Shown here: piece by piece, positions 2,803 through 37,543 of the stretch
Position numbering within the stretch: the stretch's first letter is position 1
Layout of the letters: each line of letters starts with the position of its first letter
NCBI GenBank assembly: GCA_900299145.1
Contig: OMIN01000077.1
Location: 1-39,444, forward strand
DNA: 39,444 nucleotides
Direction of reading: 5' to 3'
Source of the DNA: Betaproteobacteria bacterium
Lineage (GTDB): Bacteria > Pseudomonadota > Gammaproteobacteria > Burkholderiales > SG8-41
Made by a program: the position numbers and the translations under genes
The notes under the pieces: generated by a model
Databases searched by the model: none
The model's input: only the letters and a program-made list of their open reading frames with translations
What the model was told of the DNA's origin: nothing

Positions 2803-2830
2803 ATAAGCAATTGTTTTAATTAATTTTTAA
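2803..2830 (+). repeat. AT-rich junction repeat, copy 1
   Basis: T-rich strand is plus (ATAAGCAATTGTTTTAATT). On the gene strand it supplies the stop TAA of the Bug gene and runs into the start of the flavoprotein gene. Confidence 0.75.
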
Positions 2831-3798
2831 TCCAGTTTCATGCCGGCGGCCCTGACGATTTTGCGCACCTTGTCGATCTCGGCACGAATAAATCCATCAA
2901 ACGCCGCCGGCTCGCTCGCCACCGCGTCCGAGCCGTCACGCGCCAGGCGCTCGGCCACATCCGGCAATTTCAACGCACGCGCAATGTCGGCGTGCAGTCT
3001 CGTAACCACGCCCGCGGGCGTGCCGCCCACGGTAAAGATGCCGTACCAGGTTGTCGCTTCGTAACCCGGCAGGCCATCCTCGGCAATTGTCGGCAATTTA
3101 AGCGCAGGCACACGCTTGGCGGTGGTGACGGCCAGCGCACGCAGACGGCCACTGTTCGCATGCGGCAACACGGTGAAAGTGCTGCCAAAGGTCAACTGCG
3201 TTTGCCCCGCAATTAGGTCAGTGATCGCCGGTGCGCTGCCCTTGTAAGGCACGTGCACCATGCTGATGCCGGCCAGCGTCTTGAACGATTCGCCCGCCAG
3301 ATGTTGCGGCCCGGCGTTGCCTGAAGTAGCAAATGCCAGTTGCCCTGGGCGCGCCTTTGCCAGCGCGATGAGTTCGCGCACATTGCGCACGGGCAACCCG
3401 GGATGGGTGGTAAGCACCATCGGCGCGGCGGCGATTTGTGTCACGCCCGCGAAATCACGCAAGGTGTCGTAGGGCAGCTTTGCGTGCAGCGCCGGGTTGG
3501 TGGTGTGCGTGTTGGCGGTCAGCAGCAACGTGTGGCCATCCGGCGCACTCTTCGCAACGAGATCAGAGCCGATCACCGTGCCGCCGCCGGGGCGGTTGTC
3601 CACCACCACCTGCTGGCTCCACGCGGCGGAGAGTTTCGCCGCCAGCGTACGTGCCAACAGGTCGGTGCCGCCGCCCGGTGCAAAAGGCACGACAATGCGC
3701 ACCGCCCGCTGCGGAAAGTTGCTCTCGGCGCCTTGTGCACTGGCGCCCAGAACGCACAACAGCGCCCATCCGGCATATCGCGTGATGAAAGGAGTCAT
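2827..3798 (-). CDS. Bug/TctC-family periplasmic substrate-binding protein
   Basis: About 323 residues from the ATG at 3798. That ATG overlaps the stop of the preceding Bug gene in an ATGA arrangement, so translation is probably coupled; an upstream extension of 13 residues in frame lacks support. The N-terminus (MTPFITRYAGWALL) is a signal peptide ending near AQGAES. The mature part shows FPQRAVRIVVPFAPGGGTD, DNRPGGG and HVPYKGSAPA, the carboxylate-binding signature of the family. It sits directly after another Bug gene, and such tandem pairs may differ in ligand. It should act in the periplasm as a carboxylate receptor. No transporter membrane subunit is nearby. Confidence 0.92.
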   Translation of the reverse strand: MTPFITRYAGWALLCVLGASAQGAESNFPQRAVRIVVPFAPGGGTDLLARTLAAKLSAAWSQQVVVDNRPGGGTVIGSDLVAKSAPDGHTLLLTANTHTTNPALHAKLPYDTLRDFAGVTQIAAAPMVLTTHPGLPVRNVRELIALAKARPGQLAFATSGNAGPQHLAGESFKTLAGISMVHVPYKGSAPAITDLIAGQTQLTFGSTFTVLPHANSGRLRALAVTTAKRVPALKLPTIAEDGLPGYEATTWYGIFTVGGTPAGVVTRLHADIARALKLPDVAERLARDGSDAVASEPAAFDGFIRAEIDKVRKIVRAAGMKLD

Positions 3799-4763
3799 TT
3801 GCCTGCCAGCCCCGCGTGTTTGACCACGGCGGCCCATTTGGCGATCTCGCTGCGGATCAGTGCGGCAAACACTTCCGGCGCGCCGCCGGCGGGTTCCGCA
3901 CCATCCGACGCGATGCGCTCGGAAAAATCCCGCGTCTTGATGAACCTGTTCGATTCGGTGTTGAGCCGCGCAACAATAGCCGCTGGTGTCGCCGCCGGCG
4001 CGAGCAAGCCGTACCAGCCGATGTATTCGTAACCTGGCACGCCGGATTCATGCACGGTGGGCAGATCGTTCAAAGTTGAAACACGCTGTTTACCGGTGAC
4101 CGCCAGCGCGCGTACGCGGCCCGATTTCAGATGCGGCCCCGCCGCCGGCAGACTCGCAAAATACATCGACACCTGCCCGGCGATGAGATCGACCAGCGCT
4201 GGCCCGCCCCCCTTGTAGGGAACGTGCAGCACGTCGATTTTTGCCAGCATCTTGAATAGTTCCGTCGCCAGATGCGTGGAACTGCCGCTGCCGCTGGAGG
4301 CGTAACTCAATTCTGTGGGCCTTGCCCGCGCCAGTTTGACCAGATCGGCAATGCTGCGCGCCGGCACCGAAGGGTGTACCAGAACCACGTTCGCTGCCGA
4401 GGCGATAAGCACGATGGGCGCGAAATCCTTTTCCGGGTGAAACGGCAGCTTGGGCGTGAGACTGATATTCGCGGCGTGACTGATCGGCACCACCAGCAGG
4501 GTGTAGCCGTCGGGCGCTGCTTTCGCCGCCGCTTCTGTGCCCACGATGCCGCCCGCGCCGGGGCGATTGTCAACGATGACGTTCTGACCCAGCTGTTGCT
4601 GCAGCGGCTGCGCGCACAGGCGCGCGACGAAATCCGAACCGCCGCCGGGCGCATAGGGCACGATGATGCGCAGCGGCTTGGTGGGAAAACTTTGCGCATG
4701 GGCGCTGAATGTATCAACCCAAGCACACAGGAAAAATATCAATAAAAACAAATACTTATACAT
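3795..4763 (-). CDS. Bug/TctC-family periplasmic substrate-binding protein
   Basis: 322 residues with a signal peptide (MYKYLFLLIFFLCAWVD, then FSAHAQS). Family motifs are FPTKPLRIIVPYAPGGGSD, DNRPGAGGIVG, APDGYTLL and HVPYKGGGPA. The start ATG at 4763 overlaps the last 8 nt of the MmgE/PrpD gene. The first ten codons are unusual: they are made of the same AT-rich repeat found at many junctions in this window (4733-4760), which happens to encode a hydrophobic stretch usable as a signal peptide core. Likely a periplasmic carboxylate receptor co-expressed with the MmgE/PrpD protein before it and the second Bug after it. Confidence 0.92.
   Translation of the reverse strand: MYKYLFLLIFFLCAWVDTFSAHAQSFPTKPLRIIVPYAPGGGSDFVARLCAQPLQQQLGQNVIVDNRPGAGGIVGTEAAAKAAPDGYTLLVVPISHAANISLTPKLPFHPEKDFAPIVLIASAANVVLVHPSVPARSIADLVKLARARPTELSYASSGSGSSTHLATELFKMLAKIDVLHVPYKGGGPALVDLIAGQVSMYFASLPAAGPHLKSGRVRALAVTGKQRVSTLNDLPTVHESGVPGYEYIGWYGLLAPAATPAAIVARLNTESNRFIKTRDFSERIASDGAEPAGGAPEVFAALIRSEIAKWAAVVKHAGLAGK
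4733..4760 (-). repeat. AT-rich junction repeat, copy 2
   Basis: T-rich strand is minus (ATAAGTATTTGTTTTTATTG), the sense strand of the Bug gene; it begins 2 nt after the ATG's T and encodes the signal peptide start YKYLFLLIF. Confidence 0.8.
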
Positions 4764-6153
4764 GAAGCGCTGTCGATAAGGCTGTTATGCTGGATGCGCC
4801 ACGCAAACCACTCACTGCACCGATCACACGCTCCACGCGCGCGCCATCGGCCATCGGCTTCGCCAGCAAACGAAACTTCGCTTCGATCTCCGCAGCGTCG
4901 CAGGCATCCGCCGCCGTGCCGTGCGGATCGATCACCGTGCGTTCGAAGCGGCGCTGGTTGTTCAATTCAATTTCCACGCGCGCGGCAAAGTGTGCGGGGT
5001 ATAGCGCATCTAGCTTCTCGTCGATGCGCAGCTGCGTGAGGCGTGACACGCGGCGGATTTCCGCATCCGCCAGCGCCTGCGTATCGAACGCGGCCGGGTC
5101 GCGCGGGTTCTTCACCACCGCCGCGCCCGCGCAATACGGGATGCTGTATTGCGCCGCCATGGTCTCTTGTGGATCAGGATCGCCGTTATGGTCCACCGCG
5201 CGCTTGCTGGTGTGTACCACGATGCGTTTCACATCGGCAGGCGTCAGCGCGCTTTCCAGTTTGATGGTCTCAATGGCATTGGACACCGAGTGAATCAGCC
5301 CGCAGCACGGATACGCCTTCACCCACACGCGCGAAATCGCGTAGTCCTCGCCGAGTTTGTCGGTCAGCGCGTTGACGGCGGTGTCGCTGCCGCCGATGAC
5401 TTCGATCAAGCCAAAGTGCCCGTCGATGGCGGCCAGCGGCCCGGTAAAGCCGCGCTGCGCGAGTTCGCACGCCAGCACACCGGTCTCCGCCGCGCGGCCC
5501 GCGTGCATGCGCTTGACCATGCCGCCGCTACCCTGTGTGAAGGCCTTGATGCCGCCCGCACTGGAACAGGCGATGCCGATGGCCGCCAGCACGGTGTCGC
5601 GCGGCAGGCCCAGCACCACGCCAACGGCCACCGTGGCGGCGATGGGCCCGGCCACGCCCGTGGTGTGAAAGCCGCGCGTATTGTGTTCCGCACCCAGCGC
5701 CCAACCGAGGCGCGACATCATTTCATAACCGGCAATGATGGCGAGCAACAGGCGTTCCCCCGGTGCGTTGGTCTCCTCCGCCACGGCCAGCGCCGCCGGC
5801 ACCACGCAGGCGCCGGGGTGCACCAGCGCGCCCTGAATGATGTCGTCCAGCTCAAAGCCATGCGTGGCCGTGCCGTTGGCCAGCGCCGCGCGCGACGGCG
5901 CGACGGTCATCTGGGAGCCGAACAAGGTGGCCTTCCCGCGCGAGCCCTCATGTTCAATCTGTTCACGCAAAATCTTGCCCCATGGCTGGATCGCGCCGTA
6001 GATGCCGCAGCCCAGCGTGTCGAGCAGCGCCATGCGCGCGTTGCCGCCCAGCGGGCCATCCAGCAGCGACGCTGGCAGCGACAGCAGATGTTCAACCAGC
6101 TTTTCACTTCGAGGCGCGCTTTTCGCCACGCCTTGGTCAGCCCCTGTGTGCAT
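4756..6153 (-). CDS. MmgE/PrpD family protein (2-methylcitrate dehydratase-like)
   Basis: 465 residues, normal for the MmgE/PrpD family, with typical blocks: LLDTLGCGIYGA, ANGTATHGFELDD, GYEMMSRLG, HTTGVAGPIAATVAVG and GGMVKRMHAGRAAE. Characterised members dehydrate 2-methylcitrate or isomerise aconitate-type acids; many paralogs in Bug-rich genomes have unknown substrates, so the name here is only a family name. The ATG at 6153 follows an AAGGA site and the stop of the upstream gene by 2 nt, so the two are co-transcribed. It overlaps the next Bug gene by 8 nt. A second member of the family lies at 13650-15068. Confidence 0.88.
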   Translation of the reverse strand: MHTGADQGVAKSAPRSEKLVEHLLSLPASLLDGPLGGNARMALLDTLGCGIYGAIQPWGKILREQIEHEGSRGKATLFGSQMTVAPSRAALANGTATHGFELDDIIQGALVHPGACVVPAALAVAEETNAPGERLLLAIIAGYEMMSRLGWALGAEHNTRGFHTTGVAGPIAATVAVGVVLGLPRDTVLAAIGIACSSAGGIKAFTQGSGGMVKRMHAGRAAETGVLACELAQRGFTGPLAAIDGHFGLIEVIGGSDTAVNALTDKLGEDYAISRVWVKAYPCCGLIHSVSNAIETIKLESALTPADVKRIVVHTSKRAVDHNGDPDPQETMAAQYSIPYCAGAAVVKNPRDPAAFDTQALADAEIRRVSRLTQLRIDEKLDALYPAHFAARVEIELNNQRRFERTVIDPHGTAADACDAAEIEAKFRLLAKPMADGARVERVIGAVSGLRGASSITALSTALHV

Positions 6154-6155
6154 GG

Positions 6156-6674
6156 TCAGTCCTTGTAAAGCTGTTTGCGCTGTTCAGTCAGCGTGCGGTA
6201 GCAAATCGCGTTGGGCGGCAGTACTGCGGGTGGCGCCTTCAGCACGGTGAGATCGCGATACGGAAAGGTCTTGTGCATGCCCGTGCAGGTGAGCCGCTTC
6301 GCACCCGCGCGCAGTGGCGCGTTGGCGTCGGTCACGTCCTCGACCAGCAGGTATTGATCGACGGGCACATTGATCGCCCAGTCGGGGTCGTCATACAGAT
6401 TGCGTGTCCACAATTGATAGGCCGGGCGAAAGCGCGCGCTGTTGGCGCCATTGCCGCCAGCCTTGATATAGGTCTCGGTCTGGTACACGGCGGGGCTGTC
6501 CACGGTGTACATGGCGAGATAGCGCGGCGTGTCGCCGGCGTGTCTAAACCGCTGCGCGGTGCGAAAGCCGGGTACGGATAACAGCACGTCAAGGTTGCCG
6601 TTGTACCAGTCGCTCCACTCCTGCTCCCAATCGGCGCGGCCGAAGAGTTGTTCCACGATGTAAATCGTTTTCAT
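6156..6674 (-). CDS. Small EthD-like / dimeric alpha-beta barrel protein, function unknown
   Basis: 172 residues from the ATG at 6674 (MKTIYIVEQLF). The frame stays open far upstream, but that part overlaps the divergent ligase gene and has no protein character, so it is left out. The sequence (DWEQEWSDWYNGNLD, VPGFRTAQRFR, YLAMYTVDS) resembles EthD- or antibiotic-monooxygenase-like ferredoxin-fold domains that form dimeric barrels; a related protein of the same general look is often seen near Bug operons, but no function is proven. No signal peptide. It starts the minus operon, 57 nt from the divergent ligase start, so a shared divergent promoter region is likely. The ribosome site is weak. 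Confidence 0.75.
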   Translation of the reverse strand: MKTIYIVEQLFGRADWEQEWSDWYNGNLDVLLSVPGFRTAQRFRHAGDTPRYLAMYTVDSPAVYQTETYIKAGGNGANSARFRPAYQLWTRNLYDDPDWAINVPVDQYLLVEDVTDANAPLRAGAKRLTCTGMHKTFPYRDLTVLKAPPAVLPPNAICYRTLTEQRKQLYKD

Positions 6675-6731
6675 GTTTTGGTGGTTATGTGTTGATTGCC
6701 GGATAATTGTGCCACACGAGAACCGATAAAA

Positions 6732-8360
6732 ATGTCCGCAACTCACATACGCCACACTCGCCTCACCCCCGAACTCATTGCGCAGTACACCGCCAGCGGT
6801 GCGTGGCCCAACCGCCTGATAACCGATTTTCTGGATGACGCGGTCAAGGCGCACCCACACAAGACCGCCATCATCGACAGCCGTGGCGCGATTACCTACG
6901 GCGAACTCGCCCGCGAAAGCGAGCGTTGTGCGCACGCGCTGCTCACGTTGGGCTTGAAGCCCGGCGATGTGGTGGCCCTGCAGTTGCCGAACTGGAAGGA
7001 ATTCCTGATCGTGCATCTGGCGGCCACGCGCATCGGCGTCGTCAGCAGCCTGATCACGCCGATGAGCCGTGACCGCGAGCTGGTGCACATGCTCAACCTG
7101 TCCGATGCCCGTGTGCTGGTGATTCCCGACAGCTACCGCAACCATGATTACCGCGCCATGGTGGCGCGGGTGCGGGGCGAAGTGCCGACGTTGCAGCAGG
7201 TGATTGTAGTTGGCGAAACTGCGAATTCACACGAAGTGGGCTGGCCGGATTTTCTTGCCGCGGCCGATACGCGCCACGACTTCGCAGCGTTGAAGCCCCA
7301 CGCCAACGACGTGACCGAGATCGTGTTCACTTCTGGCGCAACCGGCGAGCCCAAGGGCGTGATGCACACCAGCAACACCATCGTTGCACCACAGTTAGCG
7401 CTGGCGGCGTCGCTGCGACTCTCGCGCGATGACGTGATCCACATCGCCTCCACCATCGCACACCAGACGGGCTTTTTGAACGGCGTGCGGCTGCCCATCC
7501 AGTTGGGCGCCACTGTGGTGTTGCAGGATGTGTGGTCGGCGGAGAAGATGGTGCAATGGGTCGCCGAGCACCGCATCACCGTATCGAGCGGCAGCGCGAC
7601 CTTTTTGCTTGATCTACTTCGCGCCAAGAATCTTGAGCAATGTGACTTGTCATCGTTCCGCATCTTCCGCTGCGGCGGCGGGCCAATTCCCCGCGCGCTG
7701 TTGAAGGAAGCGCGGGAGAAACTGCCGCGCACGGGCATCCACTGTGGCTGGGGGCAGACCGAAAACGCCGTGGTGACGCTGACGCGCATCGGCGCGCCCG
7801 ACGAAAAGCTGCTCAACACCGATGGCTGCGCGCAACCGGGCATGGAAGTGCGCGTGGTTAATGATAAAAATCAAATACTTGCAGCAGGTACGGAAGGCCG
7901 CCTGCAATGCCGCGGGCCGTTCATGTTCGTGGGTTACATCAAGCAGCTCGAACTGACCCGTGAGAATTTCGATGGTGAGTGGTTCGACACCGGCGACCTC
8001 GCCACGCTGGATGCGGAGGGGTTCATCCGCATCACCGGGCGCCTGAAAGACATCATCATCCGTGGTGGCGAAAACATCCCCGTCAAATACGTCGAGGACA
8101 TCCTCTACGAAGACCCGCGCGTGCAGGACGCTGCCATCGTCGCCATGCCCGACCAGCGCCTGGGCGAGCGTGCATGCGCATTTGTGATTTGCCGCGATGG
8201 CCAGACGCTCGATATGAAAGCCATGCAGGAATTTCTTGCAGCACGCGGCGTGGCCAAGGTGTATTGGCCGGAGCGGCTGGAGGTAGTTGCTGAGTTGCCG
8301 CGTACGGCTAATGGCAAGGTGCGGAAGGCGGATTTAAGGGCGCGGTTGGGGAAGTTGTAG
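6732..8360 (+). CDS. AMP-dependent acyl-CoA synthetase/ligase
   Basis: 542 residues from the ATG at 6732; an in-frame ATG at 6696 adds 12 residues that reach into the short divergent gap. All core adenylate-forming motifs are present: the phosphate loop TSGATGEPKG (about residues 200-209), GWGQTEN (about 338), the hinge region EWFDTGDL (about 414), GRLKDIIIRGGENI (about 436-449), and the C-terminal catalytic lysine in NGKVRK (about 527). The enzyme activates a carboxylic acid to its acyl-AMP and then acyl-CoA in the cytoplasm. It resembles medium-chain or alicyclic acid ligases (AliA/cyclohexanecarboxylate-CoA ligase type), but the substrate is inference. It probably supplies the CoA esters used by the dehydrogenases and hydratases that follow. 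Confidence 0.9.
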   Translation: MSATHIRHTRLTPELIAQYTASGAWPNRLITDFLDDAVKAHPHKTAIIDSRGAITYGELARESERCAHALLTLGLKPGDVVALQLPNWKEFLIVHLAATRIGVVSSLITPMSRDRELVHMLNLSDARVLVIPDSYRNHDYRAMVARVRGEVPTLQQVIVVGETANSHEVGWPDFLAAADTRHDFAALKPHANDVTEIVFTSGATGEPKGVMHTSNTIVAPQLALAASLRLSRDDVIHIASTIAHQTGFLNGVRLPIQLGATVVLQDVWSAEKMVQWVAEHRITVSSGSATFLLDLLRAKNLEQCDLSSFRIFRCGGGPIPRALLKEAREKLPRTGIHCGWGQTENAVVTLTRIGAPDEKLLNTDGCAQPGMEVRVVNDKNQILAAGTEGRLQCRGPFMFVGYIKQLELTRENFDGEWFDTGDLATLDAEGFIRITGRLKDIIIRGGENIPVKYVEDILYEDPRVQDAAIVAMPDQRLGERACAFVICRDGQTLDMKAMQEFLAARGVAKVYWPERLEVVAELPRTANGKVRKADLRARLGKL

Positions 8361-8371
8361 TGAACGCCATA

Positions 8372-8938
8372 TCAGCTTAGCCGACCTTCTTCAAGCTTGG
8401 AGTAGTTCGGTTTGCCCCAAGAAAACTCCAGTCGATCATGCGAGTAGCCTGTTAAGGCAGTAGCTAGGCGAACGGGGATGTCAAAAATATAGTCGACCCC
8501 TAGAATTTCATTCGGATCTCGCTCCCGAAGATCCTCCTTCCTCTGATTCTCAACAGCCGCTTTGCGGATCTCGTTGAAGGGGTCAGGAATATCACCCTCC
8601 GTATCCAAGTGATCTACTCCGGAATCGCTCTCATGTACAACATTCCAAAGCCGCTTCCCATCTCGATAGTAGAACGCTGCGCTTGCCATGATGTGCTCCT
8701 CTACCTGGCATCCCAATATCGAGCAGCCTTTTGATGCCGCACTTAAAAATTCCGGCGTCACAAATCGGTGAAAACAATCTCTAAGGCACAGCAAGTAGGT
8801 ATTGTCTGGAATGGATGTGCCGCAAATTGATGACTCGGGATATTCTTCAGTTTCCCCGGTATCGTAAAGGCCAAAGCGTTCCAATAGCTTGTGTTTTTCT
8901 AATCCGCGAATTGCAATCCAAGGTATTGAAAAGCCCAT
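8372..8938 (-). CDS. Hypothetical protein, unrecognised, atypical base composition
   Basis: 188 residues, no signal peptide or membrane segment, acidic overall with four to five cysteines (SICGTS, CLRDCFHRF, GCSILGCQVEE). It begins MGFSIPWIAIRGL, preceded by a good TAGGAG site 7-8 nt before the ATG at 8938. Base composition is visibly AT-richer than the flanking catabolic genes, and it lies tail to tail with the ligase and unrelated to it in theme, which suggests recent arrival. The compact acidic make-up recalls small immunity-type or orphan proteins, but no family was recognised with confidence and no function is proposed. Confidence 0.7.
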   Translation of the reverse strand: MGFSIPWIAIRGLEKHKLLERFGLYDTGETEEYPESSICGTSIPDNTYLLCLRDCFHRFVTPEFLSAASKGCSILGCQVEEHIMASAAFYYRDGKRLWNVVHESDSGVDHLDTEGDIPDPFNEIRKAAVENQRKEDLRERDPNEILGVDYIFDIPVRLATALTGYSHDRLEFSWGKPNYSKLEEGRLS

Positions 8939-9010
8939 CGTCGTAACTCCTATGCTGCACGACCTTGCATGATAAATTGCGGCGTCCCCCGCGACTTCAC
9001 TTTGCCTACG

Positions 9011-10219
9011 TTAAATCACCCCACCCGCCTTAAAAGAAGCCACTTCTTCCGCGGAGTGCCCCAACCACTCTCCCAGCACCGCCTCATTGCTCGCCCCCAG
9101 CGTCACATTGGGCTCAATCGCCCGTCGTGGCGTACCTTCGAAAATCAGCGGTGAGTTGGGCAGCACGATGCGGCCCATGACGGGATGGTCTATCCACTCC
9201 AGGCTGCCGCGCGCATGCATGTTTTCGTCGTTCATCACTTCCTTCAGCGTACGCACGGCCGCGCAGGGCACCCCCGCTTCGATCATGCGTTTGGCGACGT
9301 CGTGCTTCATCTCATTCTTGCTCCAGCTTTCGAGCAACTCATCGACCGCCGCCATGTTGGCCACGCGCGTGGCGCGCGAAACGAAGCGCGGATCGGTTTT
9401 GAGATCGGCCCGGCCGATGACATCGAGCACGGCGCGGAAGTGGTGGTCGTTGGGCGCGTTCAGCACCACGAAGCCATCCTTCGTCTTATAGGCGTTGTAG
9501 GGTGAAATGCCGAGGCCCGCGTGCTTGTTGCCGGTGCGCGAGGGGGCCGATTCGCCGCGCGCGTGCAGCATGCCGTAGTTGGAGGCGAGCGATGAGTAGA
9601 TGGCATCCTGCATCGACACCTCGACCACGCGGCCCTTGCCGGTGCGTTCGCGCTCATACAATGCAGTGACCACGGCGGCGTAGAGGTGCGTGCCCGCGCC
9701 GAAATCGCATACCGCAGCGCCCGCCTTCACCGGCGGCAGTTCGGCATAGCCCGTGGAATCGACCACGCCGCACATGGCCTGCATGACGAGGTCCATCGCC
9801 GGGTAATCGCGGTAAGGGCCGGTCTTGCCATAACCGGAACTGGAGCCGTAAATCAAACGCGGGTTGATCTTCTGCAATTCCGCCGCGCCCAAGCCGAGGC
9901 GATCCATTACGCCGGGGGCGAAGTTTTCCACCACCACATCGGCGCGCGCCACCATTTCGCGGAACAGGGTTTTGCCCTGCTCGGTTTTGAGATTCAGCGT
10001 GACCGATTGCTTGTTGGAATTCAACATGGCAAACGGCAGATCGGCGCCACCCATGTCGCCACGGCTGCGCAGGTTTTCGCCTTCGCGCGGCTCGATCTTG
10101 ATCACGCGCGCGCCTGCCATCGCCATCATGAACGTGGCGTACGGGCCGGCGTAGATGTGCGAAAGGTCTAGGACGGTGATGCCCGTCAGGGGTAGTGTGT
10201 TGTTTGGTTCGACAGCCAT
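9011..10219 (-). CDS. CaiB/BaiF family III CoA-transferase
   Basis: 402 residues with the family III layout: GITVLDLSHIYAGPYATF at the N-terminus, IKIEPREGENLR, then VVENFAPGVMDRLGL, and the expected catalytic aspartate D143 in YPAMDLVMQA. These enzymes move CoA between a CoA ester and a free carboxylate through an aspartyl-CoA intermediate. Start ATG at 10219. It follows an acyl-CoA dehydrogenase gene by 36 nt, and that gap is largely an AT-rich repeat (10231-10258). Together with the ligase it gives the cluster two ways to activate acids. Substrate unknown (carnitine, succinate, or mesaconate type members exist). Confidence 0.9.
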   Translation of the reverse strand: MAVEPNNTLPLTGITVLDLSHIYAGPYATFMMAMAGARVIKIEPREGENLRSRGDMGGADLPFAMLNSNKQSVTLNLKTEQGKTLFREMVARADVVVENFAPGVMDRLGLGAAELQKINPRLIYGSSSGYGKTGPYRDYPAMDLVMQAMCGVVDSTGYAELPPVKAGAAVCDFGAGTHLYAAVVTALYERERTGKGRVVEVSMQDAIYSSLASNYGMLHARGESAPSRTGNKHAGLGISPYNAYKTKDGFVVLNAPNDHHFRAVLDVIGRADLKTDPRFVSRATRVANMAAVDELLESWSKNEMKHDVAKRMIEAGVPCAAVRTLKEVMNDENMHARGSLEWIDHPVMGRIVLPNSPLIFEGTPRRAIEPNVTLGASNEAVLGEWLGHSAEEVASFKAGGVI

Positions 10220-10230
10220 ACGATAAACCG

Positions 10231-10258
10231 TAACTTATTGTTTTTGTTGATATTTTTA
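10231..10258 (+). repeat. AT-rich junction repeat, copy 3
   Basis: T-rich strand is plus (TAACTTATTGTTTTTGTTGA). It fills most of the 36 bp between the dehydrogenase stop (inside the repeat) and the CaiB start. Confidence 0.8.
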
Positions 10259-11419
10259 GAAATTGTTCATGCCCAAAAACCCGTTCACCGGGAAGTCCGC
10301 CAGCACCTTCTTGCCGACCAGTTCCTTCAACGTCTCGGTGGTGCCGCCACCCAGCGTGCCGTAGCGTGCGCCGCGATAGAAGCGCGACACCGGAAACTCA
10401 TCGGTAAAGCCGTAGCCGCCGTGCACCTGAATCGCGTCGCTGGTGACACGCAGCGACATTTCATTGACGGTGATCTTGGCCATGGCCGCAAGGTATGGAT
10501 CGGGAAACGGCTTCGCGCTGGCCGCCGCGCGATACAGTATCGAACGGCTGGCTTCAATGTCGCGGTACATCTCGGCGAGCTTGTGGCGGATCGCCTGAAA
10601 ATCACCGATAGGCTTGCCGAAGGCGGTGCGGTCGCGTGCGTATTTCACCGCTTCTTCAAACGCACCTTCGGCGAGGCCCAGTGACACGCTGGGGTTCAAG
10701 CAGCGCTGCGTGTTGAAGGCATTGATCATTTTTTTGAAGCCGCCTTCCTTCAACACCAGGTTTTCGAGTGGCAGCTCAATGTCGTTGAAGCGTATCTCCG
10801 CCAGGTGCTCGCCACCCATGGTGTGATACTTCGCGGTGATTTCAAAGCCCGGCCGGTCCGCTTCGACCAGCACGCAGCCGATGCCGCCGCGCCCCGGTAT
10901 CTTGTTCACGCGTGTGAACACCACATAAAGGTGTGCATCCCCCACGCGGCTGATCAGCGTCTTCACGCCGTTCAAAATGACCTTGTCGCCCTTGATATCG
11001 CAGTTGGTGCGATAGTTGCCGACATCGGTACCGGCATGCGGCTCGGTCATGCAGATGGCGAGGATGGTGTCCGCCGTGCACACGCCCGGCAGCCACTTGC
11101 GCTTGATGCTCTCCGGCGCAAAAGTCGAAACCACGCGGCATTGCGTGCCGACTTCGCCCATCACATCCATCGCCGTAACGTAACAACCTTTGGCGATTTC
11201 CTCGAGCACGAACACGGTGTCGAGCACCGGCAGGCCCAGCCCGCCGTATTCCTCCGGCACCGCCATGCCGAGCACGCCGATCTTGGCCAGCTCGCGCATG
11301 TTCTCCCACGGGAACGTGCCGTCCATGTACTTCAGCGCGTTGGGCTTGATCTTGTCTTGCACCAGTTCGCGCACGGTGTTGACCATGGCACGCTGATCCT
11401 GTGTTAACTCGAAATCCAT
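10256..11419 (-). CDS. Acyl-CoA dehydrogenase family protein, usual catalytic Glu missing
   Basis: 387 residues with the full acyl-CoA dehydrogenase fold: helical N-domain (PEEYGGLGLP, 55-64), FAD-binding beta domain (CMTEPHAGTD, 123-132), and helical C-domain (DRTAFGKPIGDFQAIRHKLAEM; GGYGFTDEFPVSRFYRGARYG). In short/medium-chain types the base is Glu in YEGT; here that spot is G358 (TLGGGTT). In isovaleryl and long-chain types it is a Glu in a D-L-E-R motif; here the aligned residue is Q238 (NTQRC). So neither usual base is present. D85 and E89 lie near the region where an Asp is the reported base in cyclic-diene-forming enzymes. The start is at 11419 after a repeat that supplies an AAGGA site. 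Confidence 0.88.
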   Translation of the reverse strand: MDFELTQDQRAMVNTVRELVQDKIKPNALKYMDGTFPWENMRELAKIGVLGMAVPEEYGGLGLPVLDTVFVLEEIAKGCYVTAMDVMGEVGTQCRVVSTFAPESIKRKWLPGVCTADTILAICMTEPHAGTDVGNYRTNCDIKGDKVILNGVKTLISRVGDAHLYVVFTRVNKIPGRGGIGCVLVEADRPGFEITAKYHTMGGEHLAEIRFNDIELPLENLVLKEGGFKKMINAFNTQRCLNPSVSLGLAEGAFEEAVKYARDRTAFGKPIGDFQAIRHKLAEMYRDIEASRSILYRAAASAKPFPDPYLAAMAKITVNEMSLRVTSDAIQVHGGYGFTDEFPVSRFYRGARYGTLGGGTTETLKELVGKKVLADFPVNGFLGMNNF

Positions 11420-11446
11420 AAAATTCCTTTAAAAACAGATAGTTAT
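11420..11446 (-). repeat. AT-rich junction repeat, copy 4
   Basis: T-rich strand is minus (ATAACTATCTGTTTTTAAAG). Leader of the acyl-CoA dehydrogenase gene; its end provides the AAGGA ribosome site. Confidence 0.8.
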
Positions 11447-11638
11447 AGTATTTTCGCCCGCGCCAATCAAGCGCACGGATCGGGCATTTCAATAGCGGCT
11501 GATAGCGGCGGCGGCAGGCTTCAAGTATACGTGGATGTCGTCGGGCAGTTGCTGCACACCGTGCCTGGCCTTGCGGCGGTGCGCGCTGTTCACACTGAGC
11601 ACGCAGACCGCGCTGACCACTCTAACCACGTTAAGTTG

Positions 11639-12436
11639 TTACTTGACCGCGCTCGCGCCAAACCGCGGTGGCCGCCGCTCCGCGAATGCGGCGAGGCCTT
11701 CCGCGTAGTCCGCCGACGTCAGAATTTCACGTAGCGCGGCTGCCTCCAGCTTTAATCCCTCCGCCAGCGTAGTTGCAAGCCCGCCATATATGACCCGCTT
11801 GGCGGTACGCGCGCCCGATGGCGAACGCGAGGCCAGCACGCCGGCAATGCGCGTTACATGCGCGTCGAGTTGGTCTCCCGCGACAGCGGCATTGACAAGG
11901 CCGATTTCCGCGGCGCGCTTGCCGGTGACCGGCTCGCCGGTGAGGATGAGTTCCAGCGCGCGCATCGCGCCGATGGCCCGCGGCATGCGCTGCGTGCCGC
12001 CCGCGCCGGGAATGGCGCCGATGCGCGCTTCGGTCAAGCCGATTTGCGCATCCTCGGCGGCGTAACGTAAATCGCACGCCAGCGCGATTTCACAGCCGCC
12101 GCCCATGGCAAGGCCATTGATCGCACAGACGGTGGGCATGGGCGCGGCATCCAGCGCATCCACCGCCGCGTTGATTGCGCGATTGTGTTGGATGCGCGCG
12201 GCTTCATCCATGGTGCGGCGTTCCTTCAGATCGGCCCCCGCGCAAAACGCTCGCCCGGTGCCGCGAATCAGAATCACGCGTGCGTCGCCAGCGGCCGCTT
12301 CGGTGATCGCCGTGAGGAAGGCATTGGTCATGTCCACGCCGAGAGCGTTAAGCCGGTCGGGGCGGTTCAAGCGAATGTCGACGATGCCTTCCGCACTGCG
12401 GGTTACGATAACGCCGGTATCTGAATCTGTCTGCAT
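11639..12436 (-). CDS. Enoyl-CoA hydratase (crotonase family) with both catalytic Glu
   Basis: 265 residues. Oxyanion hole segments are FCAGADL (64-70) and MGGGCE (111-116). The two glutamates of true hydratases are present: E116 in GGGCEIA and E136 in LTEARIGAIPG, followed by GAGGTQR. It should add water to a trans-2-enoyl-CoA in beta-oxidation. Start ATG at 12436. It is transcribed leftward, divergent from the Bug gene at 12627 and followed after 219 nt by the acyl-CoA dehydrogenase. Of the three crotonases in the window it is the only one with the standard active site. Confidence 0.9.
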   Translation of the reverse strand: MQTDSDTGVIVTRSAEGIVDIRLNRPDRLNALGVDMTNAFLTAITEAAAGDARVILIRGTGRAFCAGADLKERRTMDEAARIQHNRAINAAVDALDAAPMPTVCAINGLAMGGGCEIALACDLRYAAEDAQIGLTEARIGAIPGAGGTQRMPRAIGAMRALELILTGEPVTGKRAAEIGLVNAAVAGDQLDAHVTRIAGVLASRSPSGARTAKRVIYGGLATTLAEGLKLEAAALREILTSADYAEGLAAFAERRPPRFGASAVK

Positions 12437-12553
12437 GATGTGGCCTTGCTGGTGTGACGCGGTAAAGCGGTAATGAGATGATGGGTAGCGTGATTCCAGA
12501 ACACCAAAAATGCTAGTGCCGGGTGTGTGAATCTGTCAAATCATCCCGATGAA

Positions 12554-12583
12554 TTGACGGAAAAACAGCACGCAGCATACACT
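12554..12583 (+). promoter_or_regulatory. Candidate sigma-70 promoter for the 12627 operon
   Basis: TTGACG at 12554-12559 and TACACT at 12578-12583 are separated by 18 nt, 43 nt before the start codon of the Bug gene, in the 190 bp divergent gap. The match is decent but judged by eye only. Confidence 0.4.
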
Positions 12584-12626
12584 GCCCGCAAAGCAGAAGA
12601 ACCAGAAAAACGTAGCGAGGAGACCC

Positions 12627-13637: not shown

Positions 13638-13649
13638 CGGGAGAGCGTG

Positions 13650-15068: not shown

Positions 15069-15126
15069 GATCATGTCAGGCCATTGCTTCTGGCAAGTGT
15101 GAGAACAACCACCAACGAGAATTAAC

Positions 15127-15909
15127 ATGGCTTTTGAATGCATCAACCTTTCCGTGGACAACGACGGCGTAGCGCTGCTCGAACTGAACCGCCCGGATCG
15201 TCTGAATTCGTTTAACCGGCAGATGATCGCCGAGTGGATGCAGGCGCTGCATCAAATTGCCGATGACAGCCGCGCGCGCGCCATGGTGCTCACCGGTGCG
15301 GGGCGCGCGTTTTGCGCGGGCGGCGACGCGTCGGACATGACGGTGATGCAGGCAGCCGGCAACGCCGAGCGCAAAAAATATCTTTGGAAGGAAATCCAGC
15401 GCATCCCCCTGGCGATGGAGCGGCTGGAAATTCCGGTGATCGCCGCAGTCAACGGCACCGCGCGTGGCGCAGGGCTCGACATGGCACTGATGTGCGACAT
15501 CCGGATGTGTGCGCAATCATCAACGTTCGCTGAAAGCTATATCAACATGGGGGTGATATCGGGCGATGGCGGTACCTGGTTTTTGCCGCGCGTGGTGGGC
15601 GTGTCGCGCGCGCTGGAAATGCTGTGGACGGGCTGCGTGGTTGATGCGGCGGAAGCGCAACGCATCGGCATCGTCAGCCGCGTGCTGCCGGATGCCGAAG
15701 TGCGCGCCGAAGCGATGAAACTTGCGCGCAGCATTGCCGCGCAGCCGCCGCAGGCAGTCTCGCTGATGAAGCGCGCCGTGTATCACGGGCTTTCCGGCGG
15801 CACGCTGGCCGGGCACCTCGACATGATTTCGTCGCACATGGCCGTCGTGTTTGATTCGCCGGAATTCAATGAGCGGCTGGCGGCGTTCATGGCGCGAGCC
15901 AAAAAGTAG
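15127..15909 (+). CDS. Enoyl-CoA hydratase/isomerase family protein with altered active site
   Basis: 260 residues of crotonase fold: oxyanion loop FCAGGDAS (62-69), second oxyanion loop RGAGLDMA (113-120). The first hydratase Glu is replaced by D118 and the second by Y138 (SYINMG), while D147 appears in SGDGGT, at the place used by dienoyl-CoA isomerase and 4-chlorobenzoyl-CoA dehalogenase. So simple hydratase activity is unlikely; isomerase, hydrolase or another CoA-ester reaction fits better. Start ATG at 15127 with a weak GAGA site, 58 nt after the MmgE/PrpD stop. Part of the 12627-18048 operon. Confidence 0.85.
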   Translation: MAFECINLSVDNDGVALLELNRPDRLNSFNRQMIAEWMQALHQIADDSRARAMVLTGAGRAFCAGGDASDMTVMQAAGNAERKKYLWKEIQRIPLAMERLEIPVIAAVNGTARGAGLDMALMCDIRMCAQSSTFAESYINMGVISGDGGTWFLPRVVGVSRALEMLWTGCVVDAAEAQRIGIVSRVLPDAEVRAEAMKLARSIAAQPPQAVSLMKRAVYHGLSGGTLAGHLDMISSHMAVVFDSPEFNERLAAFMARAKK

Positions 15910-15925
15910 TTTTCCCTGCTTTTTC

Positions 15926-15953
15926 ATAACCTATTGTTTTTATGGGCAATTTT
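15926..15953 (+). repeat. AT-rich junction repeat, copy 5
   Basis: T-rich strand is plus (ATAACCTATTGTTTTT) and the ATG of the secreted protein follows at once; similarity may run into the first codons. Confidence 0.75.
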
Positions 15954-17048
15954 CTGAAACATCTTCCTAGCTTATTACGCTCGTCATTCGCAACGGCATT
16001 GGTTGCGGCTTTTTTTACCAGTGCTGGCGCGTTTGCGCAGGTGGAACCCGCTGCCCCGGTAGCAGCTTCCGCCGCCACCTCTGCGCCGGAATCCGACCCC
16101 GCCCTGCGATTGCCGGAACTCAACGCCAGCGAGTGGTTTGATGGTCAGGCGGGCGGCACTTTTGGTGAAAAGGCCGTGAAATTCCTGCCGCGCTCGAAAC
16201 GGGTCGCGCTGGCCGGGTTCAAGGTCGTTTTTGTCAACGAGACCTTCGCGCGCGCCACCGTTCGCGCCAGCTACCTGCCCGGCCGGGATACCTCTGGCGC
16301 CAGCGCCGCGATGCAGGTAAATCTGGCAGGCGTGGACGCCGCGACTTTGCAGGCGTTGACCGATCAGGCTTATGCGCGTTTCATTGCCCAATTGCGCGCG
16401 GCCGGGCGCGAGGTCATGGCCGGGGCGGACGCGAAGTGGGATTACAGCGAATTTCAGACCGCGCCCTTGCCCGCCGAAGTGAGCGAGGGCGATACCAAGG
16501 GAAGCGCTTTCGCGCCTGCTGGCATGCCGCTGTGGTTTCAACTTGCCGAGTTCGGTGGGCCCCGTCTGGATCAGGCCAACAGCCGGGCCATGGGAACGGC
16601 CTCATTCAAGGCTGGCGCACCAATCATGCTGGCTGTGACCGTGGTGGTGGATTTTGCGCAAATGGCCTCGAGCGGGAATCGCAGCGGCTTGGTCGCGCGC
16701 TCGGCTGAAGTCGGCACGACGCTGGCAATGAGTGTGCGGCGGATTGACACGCGACTGGTACGCGCGGAAGAGGCCAAAGGCGGCATCGTCTACAAAGGCG
16801 ACGATGCGTGGTTGCGCCTGACCAAGCCGCTGGTTACCGATCTTGAATTTGCCGTGCTGGAAGTCGCCGAAAAAGATCACGGCAGTGGAGTCGGCGGATT
16901 CCTCTCCCGCGCTTTCGTGGGCACCGGCAAAACAGCGTTCCGCCGCGCCGAAACCTCAAACGGCGAATACAGCAAGGCGGCAACGGCGGTGCTTGAACGC
17001 GCGACGGGGACGCTCGCGAAGTTGTTCGCCGAGCATGCGGCGCAGTAA
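15942..17048 (+). CDS. Secreted protein of unknown function
   Basis: 368 residues. The N-terminus is a clear signal peptide (basic start, SSFATALVAAFFTSAGAFAQ, cleavage near AFAQ), followed by an Ala/Pro/Ser-rich linker (about 33-52) and a mixed alpha-beta domain without cysteine pairs or known catalytic motif. Segments such as SKRVALAGFKVVFVNE and LAEFGGPRLDQANS look like a folded periplasmic domain. The start ATG at 15942 directly abuts an AT-rich repeat; no purine-rich ribosome site is seen. It sits inside a Bug/CoA operon, so a periplasmic or cell-surface accessory role is possible. No family recognised. Confidence 0.8.
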   Translation: MGNFLKHLPSLLRSSFATALVAAFFTSAGAFAQVEPAAPVAASAATSAPESDPALRLPELNASEWFDGQAGGTFGEKAVKFLPRSKRVALAGFKVVFVNETFARATVRASYLPGRDTSGASAAMQVNLAGVDAATLQALTDQAYARFIAQLRAAGREVMAGADAKWDYSEFQTAPLPAEVSEGDTKGSAFAPAGMPLWFQLAEFGGPRLDQANSRAMGTASFKAGAPIMLAVTVVVDFAQMASSGNRSGLVARSAEVGTTLAMSVRRIDTRLVRAEEAKGGIVYKGDDAWLRLTKPLVTDLEFAVLEVAEKDHGSGVGGFLSRAFVGTGKTAFRRAETSNGEYSKAATAVLERATGTLAKLFAEHAAQ

Positions 17049-17082
17049 TGCGATCCGTGGCAGGAATGGACTGACCGCTTCG

Positions 17083-17110
17083 TAACCAATTGTTTTTATT
17101 ATGAAATATG
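17083..17110 (+). repeat. AT-rich junction repeat, copy 6
   Basis: T-rich strand is plus (TAACCAATTGTTTTTATT), directly followed by the ATG of the Bug gene at 17101. Confidence 0.78.
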
Positions 17111-20033: not shown

Positions 20034-20036
20034 ACA

Positions 20037-20064
20037 AAATAATCCTTTAAAAACAAATACTTAT
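20037..20064 (-). repeat. AT-rich junction repeat, copy 7
   Basis: T-rich strand is minus (ATAAGTATTTGTTTTTAAAG). Leader of the crotonase gene at 20033, including its AAGGA site. Confidence 0.82.
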
Positions 20065-20074
20065 GTTAATTCAA

Positions 20075-24573: not shown

Positions 24574-24577
24574 TCGC

Positions 24578-24604
24578 AAGTATTTGTTTTAATTGGGTAT
24601 TTTC
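24578..24604 (+). repeat. AT-rich junction repeat, copy 8
   Basis: T-rich strand is plus (AAGTATTTGTTTTAATTGG). It is essentially the whole gap between the DUF1365 stop and the CFA synthase start. Confidence 0.82.
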
Positions 24605-27605: not shown

Positions 27606-28156
27606 TGCTGTGGCACCTGCTGTGGTACTTTTTGCAGCTTCGAGACGTCGTAGCCCTGTTCACGCACCAATGCCGCCATGCGTTGGTAGTCCGCCTCGGG
27701 AATTTCCGGCGTGCGGGCCATGATCCAAACGTAATCGCGTTGCTGGCGGCTGATAATGGTCTGGCTGTAATCGGGCGTCAGATACGTGATGCGATAATCG
27801 GTCTTGAACGGCCAGATGAATTGCATGTCCCAGATTGCGTTCGATTTCGTGTCGCGCACAAAACCGCGAGGCGTGTATTTTTTCGGCTTGCCGTCGAACG
27901 CGCCATCACGAAAAGTAAAGGTCACGGCAATCGTGCCATCCGCGTCGAGCTTGTACGATTCAATCGCGTTATGCGCGCCGGTTTCAATGAAGGTGGGAAT
28001 GTTGGCGATCACATACCAGTCGCCCATGAAACGCGGCAAATCCACTTGCGTCACTGCGGGCAGCGGTTTGTCGGGCGTGCTTTGGCACGCCGCCAGCGGC
28101 AGCAGCGCCGCGCCGAGACATAACATAAGTATTTGTTTTAATTGAATATTTTTCAC
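27593..28156 (-). CDS. blc: Lipocalin family lipoprotein (Blc-like)
   Basis: 187 residues from a GTG at 28156 that overlaps the stop of the preceding gene (GTGA). This start gives a lipoprotein signal MKNIQLKQILMLCLGAALL with lipobox LAAC (cysteine about residue 24). An ATG at 28126 would shorten the signal. The mature part has the lipocalin signature PRFMGDWYVIANIPTF with the G-x-W motif, then ESYKLDADG and the C-terminal DYVWIMARTPEI. Bacterial lipocalins sit in the outer membrane and bind fatty acids or lysolipids. An AT-rich repeat (28125-28153) covers the start region and encodes the first residues. Confidence 0.88.
   Translation of the reverse strand: MKNIQLKQILMLCLGAALLPLAACQSTPDKPLPAVTQVDLPRFMGDWYVIANIPTFIETGAHNAIESYKLDADGTIAVTFTFRDGAFDGKPKKYTPRGFVRDTKSNAIWDMQFIWPFKTDYRITYLTPDYSQTIISRQQRDYVWIMARTPEIPEADYQRMAALVREQGYDVSKLQKVPQQVPQQWKK
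28125..28153 (+). repeat. AT-rich junction repeat, copy 9
   Basis: T-rich strand is plus (ATAAGTATTTGTTTTAATTG). On the gene strand it runs from the stop of the DUF6134-like gene through the first codons of the lipocalin. Confidence 0.82.
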
Positions 28157-32184: not shown

Positions 32185-32189
32185 GCGGT

Positions 32190-33725
32190 TTAATAACTCG
32201 TCGGCCAATTCCGCAGCAAATGCTCGCCCACACCGTTCTTCAGGCGCATGCGATGCACCTCCAGCGTGCGAATTAAATATTCACGCGTATCGCGCGGGTC
32301 GATCACGTTTTGCGCTTCGTATAGCTCGGCGAGGCCCCAGGCGGACGTGTCGCGCTCGACTTCGGCTTTCAGCTTTTTGAACTTCTCCGGATCATCCTCG
32401 TATTTCACGCCGTAGAGCACGTTCACCGACACCGCCGGGTCCATAAAGCCCAAGTCAGCCGTCGGCCAGCAGGCGATTTCATCCGCGTTCTTGCCGCCCG
32501 CCATGTTGATGAATGCCTGCCCGTAATTCTTACGCATCATCACCGTGATCTTGGGCACGGTGACCAGCGTCATTGCGTTCATCCAGTTGATAACCTTCCC
32601 CGGCATGCCGCGCAACTCGCCTTCAAGCCCGATCAAAAAGCCCGGCACATCCACCAGATACACCAGCGGTATGTTGTACGAATCGCACAACACCATGAAG
32701 CTGGTAACCTTGTTGCAGGCGTCGGCATCGAGGGCGCCTCCCTTGAACAGCGGGTTGTTGGCGATGAAGCCGACACTCTTGCCATCGAGCCGCGCAAGCA
32801 TCGTGCAAAGCGATTTGCCGTAACGCTCTTTCAGTTCAAACGTCGAATCCTTGTCGGCAATGGCCTTGATGATCTTGCGTGAGTCGTACACCTGATTGCG
32901 CGATTCGGGCAGGATGTCGAGTATCGTTTTGCTCGCCTCGTCGGAACCGGGCGGCACCGGCACTTCGGGCGGCGCCTCCATGTTGTGACTAGGCAAATAC
33001 GAGAGAAACCTTTTGATCGCGTCCAGCGCCTCTTCGTCGGTATCCACCGCCATGTCGGCAAGGCCCGAGATGCCGGTCAGGAGCTTCCAGCCGCCGAGTT
33101 CTTCGGCCGTGATTGGCTTGTTGATCGCAATCGACGTCACATTCGGGCTGGCGATGGCCATGATGGCGCCTTTGCGCATCACCACAAAATCCGACATCGC
33201 CGAATACCACGTCGATGAACCATAACACTGCCCCAGCAATGCCGAGCACCAGGGCGCTTCGCGCAGGCGCTGATATTCGGTGGGGTCTTGCGCGATGATC
33301 GCGCGGCCCGCCGCACCCATGCGATCCGGCATGCGCGCGCCGCTCGATTCACCCAGCAGCACCAGCGGCATGCCGCGCTTGGCAGCGACCTGCTTAACGT
33401 GCTTGATTTTTTTCATGTTGATCACCGCGCTGGATGCGCCCAGCACGGTGAAATCATTCGACACCAGCGCCACTTCGCGCCCGTGAATTTTGCCGAAGCC
33501 CGCCACCTTGCCGTCGGCCGGCGTTTTGTGTTTAACCTCGGGCCGGTTGCTGCGCGCGAAGCGGCCCGACTCCAGGAAACTGTCCTTGTCGAGCAGATAA
33601 TAGATGCGCTCGCGCGCGTTGAGATTCCCTTCGGCCTTGCGCTTGGCGAGCTTTTCCTTGCCGCCCATCGCCAGCACATCGGCGGTTCTTTGCTGAAATT
33701 CCTCGATCAGTTTTTCAAAAGCCAC
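32190..33725 (-). CDS. Acyl-CoA carboxylase beta subunit (carboxyltransferase)
   Basis: 511 residues, the usual length for propionyl-, methylcrotonyl- or geranyl-type carboxyltransferase subunits. Two crotonase-like halves are seen: N-half with GKVAGFGKIHGREVALVSNDFTV region and LLGESSGARM, C-half with NNPLFKGGALDADACNK, YLVDVPGFLIG and the glycine-rich KNYGQAF and MAGGKNADEI. It transfers carboxyl from biotin to an acyl-CoA. No biotin carboxylase or biotin carrier gene is in the window, so the alpha subunit must be elsewhere. Start is GTG at 33725 after an AAGGAAG site; the leader contains an AT-rich repeat. Placed between a Bug gene and an esterase. Confidence 0.9.
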   Translation of the reverse strand: MAFEKLIEEFQQRTADVLAMGGKEKLAKRKAEGNLNARERIYYLLDKDSFLESGRFARSNRPEVKHKTPADGKVAGFGKIHGREVALVSNDFTVLGASSAVINMKKIKHVKQVAAKRGMPLVLLGESSGARMPDRMGAAGRAIIAQDPTEYQRLREAPWCSALLGQCYGSSTWYSAMSDFVVMRKGAIMAIASPNVTSIAINKPITAEELGGWKLLTGISGLADMAVDTDEEALDAIKRFLSYLPSHNMEAPPEVPVPPGSDEASKTILDILPESRNQVYDSRKIIKAIADKDSTFELKERYGKSLCTMLARLDGKSVGFIANNPLFKGGALDADACNKVTSFMVLCDSYNIPLVYLVDVPGFLIGLEGELRGMPGKVINWMNAMTLVTVPKITVMMRKNYGQAFINMAGGKNADEIACWPTADLGFMDPAVSVNVLYGVKYEDDPEKFKKLKAEVERDTSAWGLAELYEAQNVIDPRDTREYLIRTLEVHRMRLKNGVGEHLLRNWPTSY

Positions 33726-33738: not shown

Positions 33739-33767
33739 TAAAATAATAAATAAAAACAGATACTTAC
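33739..33767 (-). repeat. AT-rich junction repeat, copy 10
   Basis: T-rich strand is minus (GTAAGTATCTGTTTTTATTT). Leader of the carboxyltransferase gene, between it and the Bug gene. Confidence 0.8.
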
Positions 33768-33774
33768 AAATATA

Positions 33775-37254: not shown

Positions 37255-37296
37255 TCGTCGCAGCAGCATGCCCAAGACTGTACCATAAATTGTCTT

Positions 37297-37314
37297 TATA
37301 AAACAAATAGTTAT
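37297..37314 (-). repeat. AT-rich junction repeat, copy 11
   Basis: T-rich strand is minus (ATAACTATTTGTTTTAT). The plus strand ends in an ATG that opens the uncertain small ORF. Confidence 0.7.
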
Positions 37315-37528
37315 GTTTTATCGGACGGAGGCCGCGAAATTGGCCCCGTGCCACGCGCCACGGCGTTCAGGCGGCGCGCGCCTGCGGCGGCTGTTCGACT
37401 GGCTCGGATACGTCTTCACCCCACACGCGCGCCAGCGTGGCATGGATTTTTTTGCGATCAGGTCGCGGCCGGCAGCAGTTCACGCTCGACTTGGCCCGAG
37501 AACCAAGCCCTTTAAAATGCCCTCATAA
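37313..37528 (+). other. Small ORF of uncertain coding status
   Basis: 71 codons, basic, no recognised domain. Its ATG lies at the end of one AT-rich repeat and its TAA stop within the start of another, the same arrangement the repeats show at proven gene junctions. That is the only reason to keep it; there is no ribosome site and the protein looks low in character. A minus-strand frame over the same DNA ends in a short gene-like tail, so the segment might instead be a gene remnant. Confidence 0.2.
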
Positions 37529-37543
37529 AATCAATAGTTTATA
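37525..37543 (-). repeat. AT-rich junction repeat, copy 12 (divergent)
   Basis: T-rich strand is minus (ATAAACTATTGATTTTATG). It contains the stop of the uncertain small ORF and lies about 40 bp before the -35 of the GHKL locus. Confidence 0.55.

Follow-up and report, generated by a model that had tools for sequence, protein, structure and literature searches.

The stretch analysed here (the window) comprises 39,444 bp of 60% GC DNA from a Betaproteobacteria bacterium (assembly GCA_900299145.1, contig OMIN01000077.1; whole genome 5.51 Mb in 158 contigs), in which a short AT-rich element recurs, mostly at gene junctions. A first-pass annotation had named ten coordinates of the element and had offered a dispersed repeat, a binding site or an RNA element as its nature; based on the analysis below, it is probably an uptake sequence of a new, AT-rich kind, such sequences being the labels by which naturally competent bacteria recognise DNA as 'self'. 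A position weight matrix (PWM), 31 positions wide, was derived from 439 kb of this genome (the window and 20 stretches of 20 kb), and matches scoring at least 20 were counted as copies. Genes were called with our own simple caller, and their boundaries are approximate. The element was recovered at all ten named coordinates with scores of 31-51, and three copies (37286, 7854 and 37514) were added by the matrix, giving 13 in the window, one of them borderline. In the following list the strand is the one that carries the T-rich sequence, and PWM scores are given in brackets.

2801..2831, plus strand: between two minus-strand genes (40.9); same place and orientation in genome G002
4731..4761, minus strand: within the first codons of the minus-strand gene 3795-4763, a signal-peptide-like region (48.6); kept in G008 (43.1), absent from G002
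7854..7884, minus strand: weaker copy within gene 6732-8360 (24.8); G002 and G008 homologues lack the element, and the alignment is gap-free
10228..10258, plus strand: tandem junction (37.6); kept in G006 (50.0)
11418..11448, minus strand: directly before the ATG of gene 10256-11419, AAAGGA variant at the ribosome-site position (40.5); kept in none of six relatives compared, with a very different junction length there
15924..15954, plus strand: start of gene 15942 (31.4); absent from G013, junction length 73 versus 72
17080..17110, plus strand: start of gene 17101 (31.8); weak copy in G013 (23.4)
20036..20066, minus strand: upstream of gene 19221-20033, AAAGGA variant (44.4); kept in G001 (41.9) and G002 (34.0)
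24574..24604, plus strand: tandem junction (41.2); kept in G002 (32.4)
28123..28153, plus strand: tandem junction (50.7)
33739..33769, minus strand: upstream of gene 32190-33725 (48.1)
37286..37316, minus strand: intergenic, absent from the first-pass list (34.9)
37514..37544, minus strand: borderline, in a locally AT-rich stretch near the first-pass end point (20.0)

The copy at 4731-4761 was also observed to encode part of the hydrophobic N-terminus (MYKYLFLLIFF) of gene 3795-4763 and was thus fitted into coding sequence.

The core 16-mer TAASTATTTGTTTTTA, with up to two mismatches allowed, gave 574 + 564 matches in the whole genome, against 3 + 4 for the same pattern read backwards (1,138 versus 7 in total). 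By PWM, 133 copies were recorded in the first sample (439 kb) versus 3 for the reversed matrix counted likewise (4 before overlaps were merged), and a second sample (258 kb) gave 70 versus 4; the pooled 203 copies in 697 kb extrapolate to about 1,600 per genome. Massive over-representation, as expected of an uptake sequence, was therefore found. The copies matched one another over about 27 bp, well past the T-tract, with a consensus of about TAASTATYTGWTTTWATTGANTWTTTT. The core bases were TAASTATYTG, and bases 2-10 of the element were taken by us as its core. The element was nearly all A/T in a genome of 60% GC; it was flanked by a few weakly AT-rich bases with background composition beyond, and no common flanking sequence was seen. 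Its information content against the 60% GC background was about 40 bits, a figure somewhat inflated because the copies had been selected by a score of at least 20, when about 12.7 bits suffice to specify 1,600 or so sites. Hence, the copies are not random, as had been claimed, and the element withstood a controlled scan of the genome and its relatives.

Further, the position of the copies relative to genes was determined. Of the 203 copies, 106 were wholly intergenic, 55 straddled a gene end and 42 were wholly coding, so that 161 were at least partly non-coding in DNA of which only 11.8% of the sampled bases are non-coding; the reported location at gene junctions was thus borne out. When gaps of at least 20 bp were counted as junctions, the element occupied 71/194 tandem, 15/42 convergent and 15/53 divergent junctions in the first sample, and 37/107, 10/31 and 8/34, respectively, in the second. 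Among narrow junctions (30-119 bp) it was found in 52/164 tandem and 12/41 convergent but in only 1/21 divergent ones. In tandem junctions the A-rich strand was sense in 71 copies and the T-rich strand in 46 (P=0.026). The rule that had tied A-sense copies and T-sense copies to stop and start codons in fixed ways did not generalize, as both orientations occurred, together with 25 convergent and 26 divergent copies. An uptake sequence would be expected at any type of junction and without orientation bias; such a pattern was found, although A-sense copies were mildly in excess in tandem junctions and narrow divergent ones were avoided.

The same data bear on a function in transcription or in RNA, as a promoter, terminator, leader or Hfq/S1 site, which had been among the original suggestions. 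The non-coding bias (161/203) and the mild tandem preference for A-sense (71 versus 46) would suit such a role. So would the ribosome sites noted at 11420 and 20037, which are indeed present and both precede start codons: all three AAAGG-bearing copies lay T-sense just before a start codon, compared with 20 of the 200 other copies. However, with three such copies among 203 this is a minor variant: the element is re-used locally there, and its general purpose lies elsewhere. Convergent, divergent and tandem junctions are all occupied in both orientations, and 42 of the 203 copies lie wholly within genes. No family reached the gathering score in an Rfam scan of the window, and scans of positions 1-20000 for consensus promoters and terminators gave no excess over shuffled sequence (5 versus 6.4 and 21 versus 21.6, respectively). 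The leader or intercistronic RNA element was therefore not upheld, and any general role in transcription or RNA is considered very unlikely.

The spacing of the copies was compared with a null model of random junctions matched by gap class, which keeps the size classes of junctions but not operon structure. In the first sample the mean spacing was 3.2 kb with a coefficient of variation (CV) of 0.52; on junctions the CV was 0.59 versus 0.85 (0.71-1.02) in the null model, and one gap shorter than 1 kb was recorded where 12.8 were expected. An independent second sample (254 kb, 70 copies) gave 0.63 versus 0.87 (0.67-1.11; P=0.005), with 4 gaps below 1.5 kb against 13.4 expected. The copies are more regularly spaced than chance in both samples. 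The orientation of successive copies was random, being the same in 64/126 pairs of the first sample and 34/63 of the second. Among the long element-free stretches, the one on contig C131 bears flagellar genes together with an integrase, the one on C69 a cluster of pilin genes, the one on C31 genes of transport, amidase, insertion sequence-type and restriction functions, and the one on C58 other genes; another lies on C99.

Such regularity is also what a binding site for a chromosome-organising (nucleoid-associated) protein would show, if one were needed every few kb for folding, anchoring or segregation. This is the strongest rival explanation, though we regard it as unlikely. The even spacing, the occupation of all junction types, the avoidance of narrow divergent junctions and the A/T-tract composition all fit it, and the even spacing of the uptake signal sequences (USS) of Pasteurellaceae was once taken by Karlin and co-workers to indicate that they function in replication, repair or compaction (PMC1939737). 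An intracellular site, however, needs about 13 bits, and some 40 bits would be hard to maintain at about 1,600 separately selected places; nor does such a site explain why a motif-free congener lacks ComEC (see below). Of the original suggestions it is the binding site that we retain, most likely one for the DNA-uptake machinery outside the cell and not for an intracellular regulator.

The origin of the copies was investigated at orthologous junctions. Twenty elements (13 from the window and 7 from locus L014) were compared with stretches of 12 congeners; 14 of them gave 34 comparisons with seven congeners at about 69-88% identity. A copy scoring at least 20 was retained in 20 of the 34 and was in the opposite orientation in none; at one junction it was present in 6/6 relatives and at another in 5/5. 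Of the 14 element-free comparisons, four had a junction of equal length within 1 bp (33/33, 31/31, 43/43 and 73/72), two were shorter by 33 and 46 bp, one was 198 bp shorter and seven were longer; the variable junction at 11418 contributed six of the 14. Elements within genes were examined likewise, using 53 copies that scored at least 22 and lay at least 100 bp from gene ends, aligned at the protein level over 2.8 Mb of loci. Homologues were matched for 27 of the 53, and 57 matches lacked the element (overlapping loci being counted apart); the element region was gap-free in 44 of these, and in 8/8 at 60% amino-acid identity or more (two of the eight being one site in two loci). Among strong in-gene copies, L110:4255 (48.6) had no gap in 3/3 distant matches, nor had L295:11180 (38.8) at 59% identity, while at L018:7319, L024:1614 and L016:19238 gaps of 1-2 residues were seen at 48-52% identity in all matches but one. 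The in-gene alignments make these copies look like the products of substitution, not insertion, and substitution is how an uptake sequence would arise. It was by a gap test of this kind that insertion was dismissed as the source of USS (PMC1626085).

These comparisons are unfavourable to a short mobile repeat copied in trans by a transposase and spaced by target immunity. The strong consensus and high copy number would be natural for such a repeat, target immunity could give the regular spacing, and at junction L014:16607 the two element-free relatives are indeed 33 and 46 bp shorter. Against this stand the gap-free alignments within genes, the four element-free junctions of equal length, the lack of a common flanking sequence, and the conservation of place and orientation in 20/34 comparisons. 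Apart from L014:16607, neither an insertion footprint nor an empty site was found, and we consider this explanation the least probable of those weighed. The earlier suggestion of a dispersed repeat tolerated only at junctions was thus right about the distribution in the main; it did not hold for the 42 of 203 copies in genes, and the mostly gap-free alignments do not resemble those of an inserted repeat. Phage origin was also rejected: the exact 19-mer occurred in 40 viral contigs with one match each, which we judged to be chance in AT-rich sequence by our own estimate, with no computed control.

The distribution of the motif was determined in 74 genomes of the family, belonging to nine genera (g1-g9) and mostly available as fragmented assemblies. 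The motif was abundant in 13/14 genomes of g1, 1/1 of g6, 21/21 of g7 and, with fewer copies, 3/3 of g8; in g6 and g7 the consensus is the same apart from small shifts. The other 35 genomes, from g2 (15), g3 (10), g4 (5), g5 (1) and g9 (4), were at or near background. A wider set of 250 genomes was taken from the order, and none of the 243 outside the family had more than 36 core matches. In a pattern scan of named genomes, at least 105 stretches titled Betaproteobacteria, Burkholderiales or 'Bordetella' carried the motif, and all matches listed were metagenome assemblies but one (Limnobacter). The motif-bearing metagenome assemblies include some titled 'Bordetella parapertussis' (among them L062 and L068-L071), a label that looks misassigned. 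Within g2, otherwise near background, G014 had 27 core matches versus 7 in the control, maybe imported DNA or a remnant; the only clear excess outside the family, 24 versus 2, was in G215 (family f15, genus g23), possibly a faint related dialect. No other dialect emerged when motif-poor relatives were searched for over-represented k-mers (40 kb from G014, 78 kb from G009); these samples are small, and in 100 kb from G018, which bears the motif, the same test did not bring the known motif into its ranking. Over-represented 10-mers of another kind, such as TGCCACAGAG and its reverse, were observed within 40 kb of G007 (L199, L200, L220) and probably form a separate repeat family.

The motif-bearing genomes were then searched for competence genes. 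ComEC (TIGR00361), the channel for DNA uptake, scored above the cut-off in 35 of the 39 genomes of motif-bearing genera, the exceptions being G009, G026, G062 and G075. The only g1 member without the motif, G009, is also the only one without ComEC; it had 22 core matches versus 10 in the control and 5 weak PWM matches versus 1 in 154 kb. The comEC gene of G026 is split between two contig ends. PilQ was above the cut-off in 33/36 family genomes. ComEA reached it in 11/13 motif-rich g1 genomes, the two without it being the least complete, and also in G018 and G009; among the g7 and g8 genomes searched it did so in 0/6. PF12836, applied to 30 genomes, added only a weak short match in G074, besides long proteins of at least 800 residues. 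A minor-pilin cluster was located in the genome of the window on contig C69 (L027:2139-4958, minus strand), encoding a ComP_DUS pilin (PF16732; L027:4506-4958), a weakly GspH-like pilin (L027:3931-4515), PilV and PilW; it is partly lower in GC than the genome and lies within a 10.6-kb element-free stretch. The PF16732 pilin is a candidate receptor, no more; its matches in PDB are general pilins, chiefly over the N-terminal part. Competence machinery, in the form of ComEC, PilQ and pilins, is thus present in the bearers of the motif, with G062 and G002 as exceptions.

The uptake-sequence reading was reached because copy number, orientation, spacing, non-coding bias, tight consensus, origin by mutation and clade limits all match those of USS and of the DNA uptake sequences (DUS) of Neisseriaceae (PMC1626085, PMC1939737, PMC3630211). 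We propose that a minor pilin of a type IV pilus would bind tagged free DNA at the cell surface, that the pilus would draw this DNA through PilQ, and that ComEC would pass one strand inside, where it would recombine at the matching locus. Tags arising by mutation would then spread and be kept through biased recombination, since tagged alleles would be taken up more often, and not through a local job at each site. Under such a process they would settle where they do least harm, at gene junctions, without an orientation rule; their consensus would become far tighter than an intracellular site needs; and they may be evenly spaced because one tag per imported fragment would suffice. Tags should also decay once uptake is lost, and USS are weaker in H. 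ducreyi, where competence genes are broken (PMC1626085). Here, G009 lacks both motif and ComEC, which fits such decay; G075 was low in motif with a doubtful gene break; and G062, which does not fit, keeps the motif without detectable ComEC.

A number of observations weigh against the uptake-sequence reading. The ComEC link rests mainly on one lineage because G009 is a diverged member of 48% GC, and since the genomes of a genus are related by descent, the link amounts to few events, not many. In G062, which is 91% complete, ComEC was not detected although there are 189 core matches; this genome either speaks against the link or is a recent or unsequenced case. In G002 the motif is abundant (811) although the ComEC match above the cut-off holds one in-frame stop. 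ComEC was also found in 14/15 motif-poor family genomes tested and is therefore necessary at most, not sufficient, for the motif. The comEC gene of G075 (g7) lies in two frames, and this genome had the lowest core count of g7 (68 versus 22); it still has 10 PWM matches versus 2 in 45 kb, mostly weak, as just 2 of them reach a score of 30 (118/133 in the genome of the window). The frame is broken at a run of seven G (C4:59403-61812, L272), which may reflect an error in sequencing, a genuine loss or a tract subject to phase variation. ComEA was rejected as a marker gene, as it fitted g1 and g6 and failed in g7 and g8, and the name of PF16732 was rejected as proof of a receptor, since the pilin of motif-poor G014 matches it too (46.9 bits, versus 60.7 bits here).

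Further points of this kind concern the copies themselves. The A-sense preference in tandem junctions, though mild, is present; the shorter junctions at L014:16607 are also expected from insertion; the in-gene copies behind the gap tests at 60% identity or more are weak (scores 23-27), and for the strong ones all homologues were more distant, gaps of 1-2 residues being present in some. The density of about 1 per 3.4 kb is below the roughly 1 per kb of USS and DUS. Depletion near integrases was only marginal (18 copies in 91.7 kb around 6 of 10 integrase matches, versus 203 in 697 kb; P=0.05). An intracellular protein whose sites are regularly spaced could also produce many of the signs that favour an uptake sequence.

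If uptake sequences arose here a third time, independently, this would suggest that what is generally required is melting or bending of AT-rich DNA on the pilus and not a GC core, and that such species police DNA exchange by tag. The motif would mark little-studied lineages as naturally transformable, and foreign DNA in their genomes could be recognised with its help. Because gains and losses are apparent within one family, a third case would make it testable why uptake sequences evolve, how a receptor reads its tag and whether even spacing is set by the length of the imported fragment. In the available portions of the literature examined, self-tagging for DNA uptake is described for Neisseriaceae and Pasteurellaceae only; the requirement for an uptake sequence was called unique to Neisseria and Pasteurellaceae by Frye et al. 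(PMC3630211), and our literature search for uptake sequences in Betaproteobacteria or Burkholderiales, with most subscription journals outside its reach, found no such motif.

The element was compared with three known systems. Repetitive extragenic palindromic (REP) sequences and miniature inverted-repeat transposable elements (MITEs) were considered by their general features: many short intergenic copies are shared with them, but the element has no conserved flanks or ends outside itself, mostly leaves no insertion footprint and is evenly spaced.

With the DUS of Neisseriaceae it shares a very high copy number, confinement to a family, intergenic preference and no orientation bias (PMC3630211, PMC1626085). 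DUS have dialects (PMC3630211, PMC1626085), and small consensus shifts were seen here in g6 and g7; ComEC and type IV pilus genes are likewise common to both, with a PF16732 minor pilin in the pilin cluster here. The sequences are unrelated, DUS being GCCGTCTGAA with a CTG core (PMC3630211); membership of the neisserial system was rejected, as the CTG-core 10-12-mer was not found and the consensus differs throughout. Unlike the element, DUS have no flanking AT motifs and often form inverted pairs at terminators, and their receptor is known (ComP), when the PF16732 pilin here is a candidate at most.

The USS of Pasteurellaceae, of Hin type AAGTGCGGT and Apl type ACAAGCGGT, differ from the element in the GCGG that it lacks, bases which are crucial in H. 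influenzae (PMC7811141); with TAASTATYTG as its core, the element was not accepted as a member of that system. It is further set apart by being nearly all A/T in a 60% GC genome, by a different bacterial group and by an uptake role that is here predicted. More than 1,000 copies, no orientation bias, regular spacing, non-coding preference and origin by mutation, not insertion, are shared with USS (PMC1626085), and the USS consensus was likewise noted as anomalously strong (PMC1626085). In both, the core precedes two AT-rich segments whose centres are about 11-12 bp apart, the second consisting mainly of T; in USS, where the core has 9 bp, the T-rich segment has its centre 12 positions from the AT segment that follows the core (PMC1626085). 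The first four bases of the commoner form of the element, AAGT, are common to the Hin-type USS, which may be coincidence. In layout the element matches a Pasteurellaceae USS, a core and two AT segments about one helical turn apart, with GCGG replaced by A/T. We lean slightly towards a third case in which uptake sequences arose independently, among GC-rich Burkholderiales that are represented chiefly by metagenome assemblies, the signal being almost purely A/T and arranged as in Pasteurellaceae.

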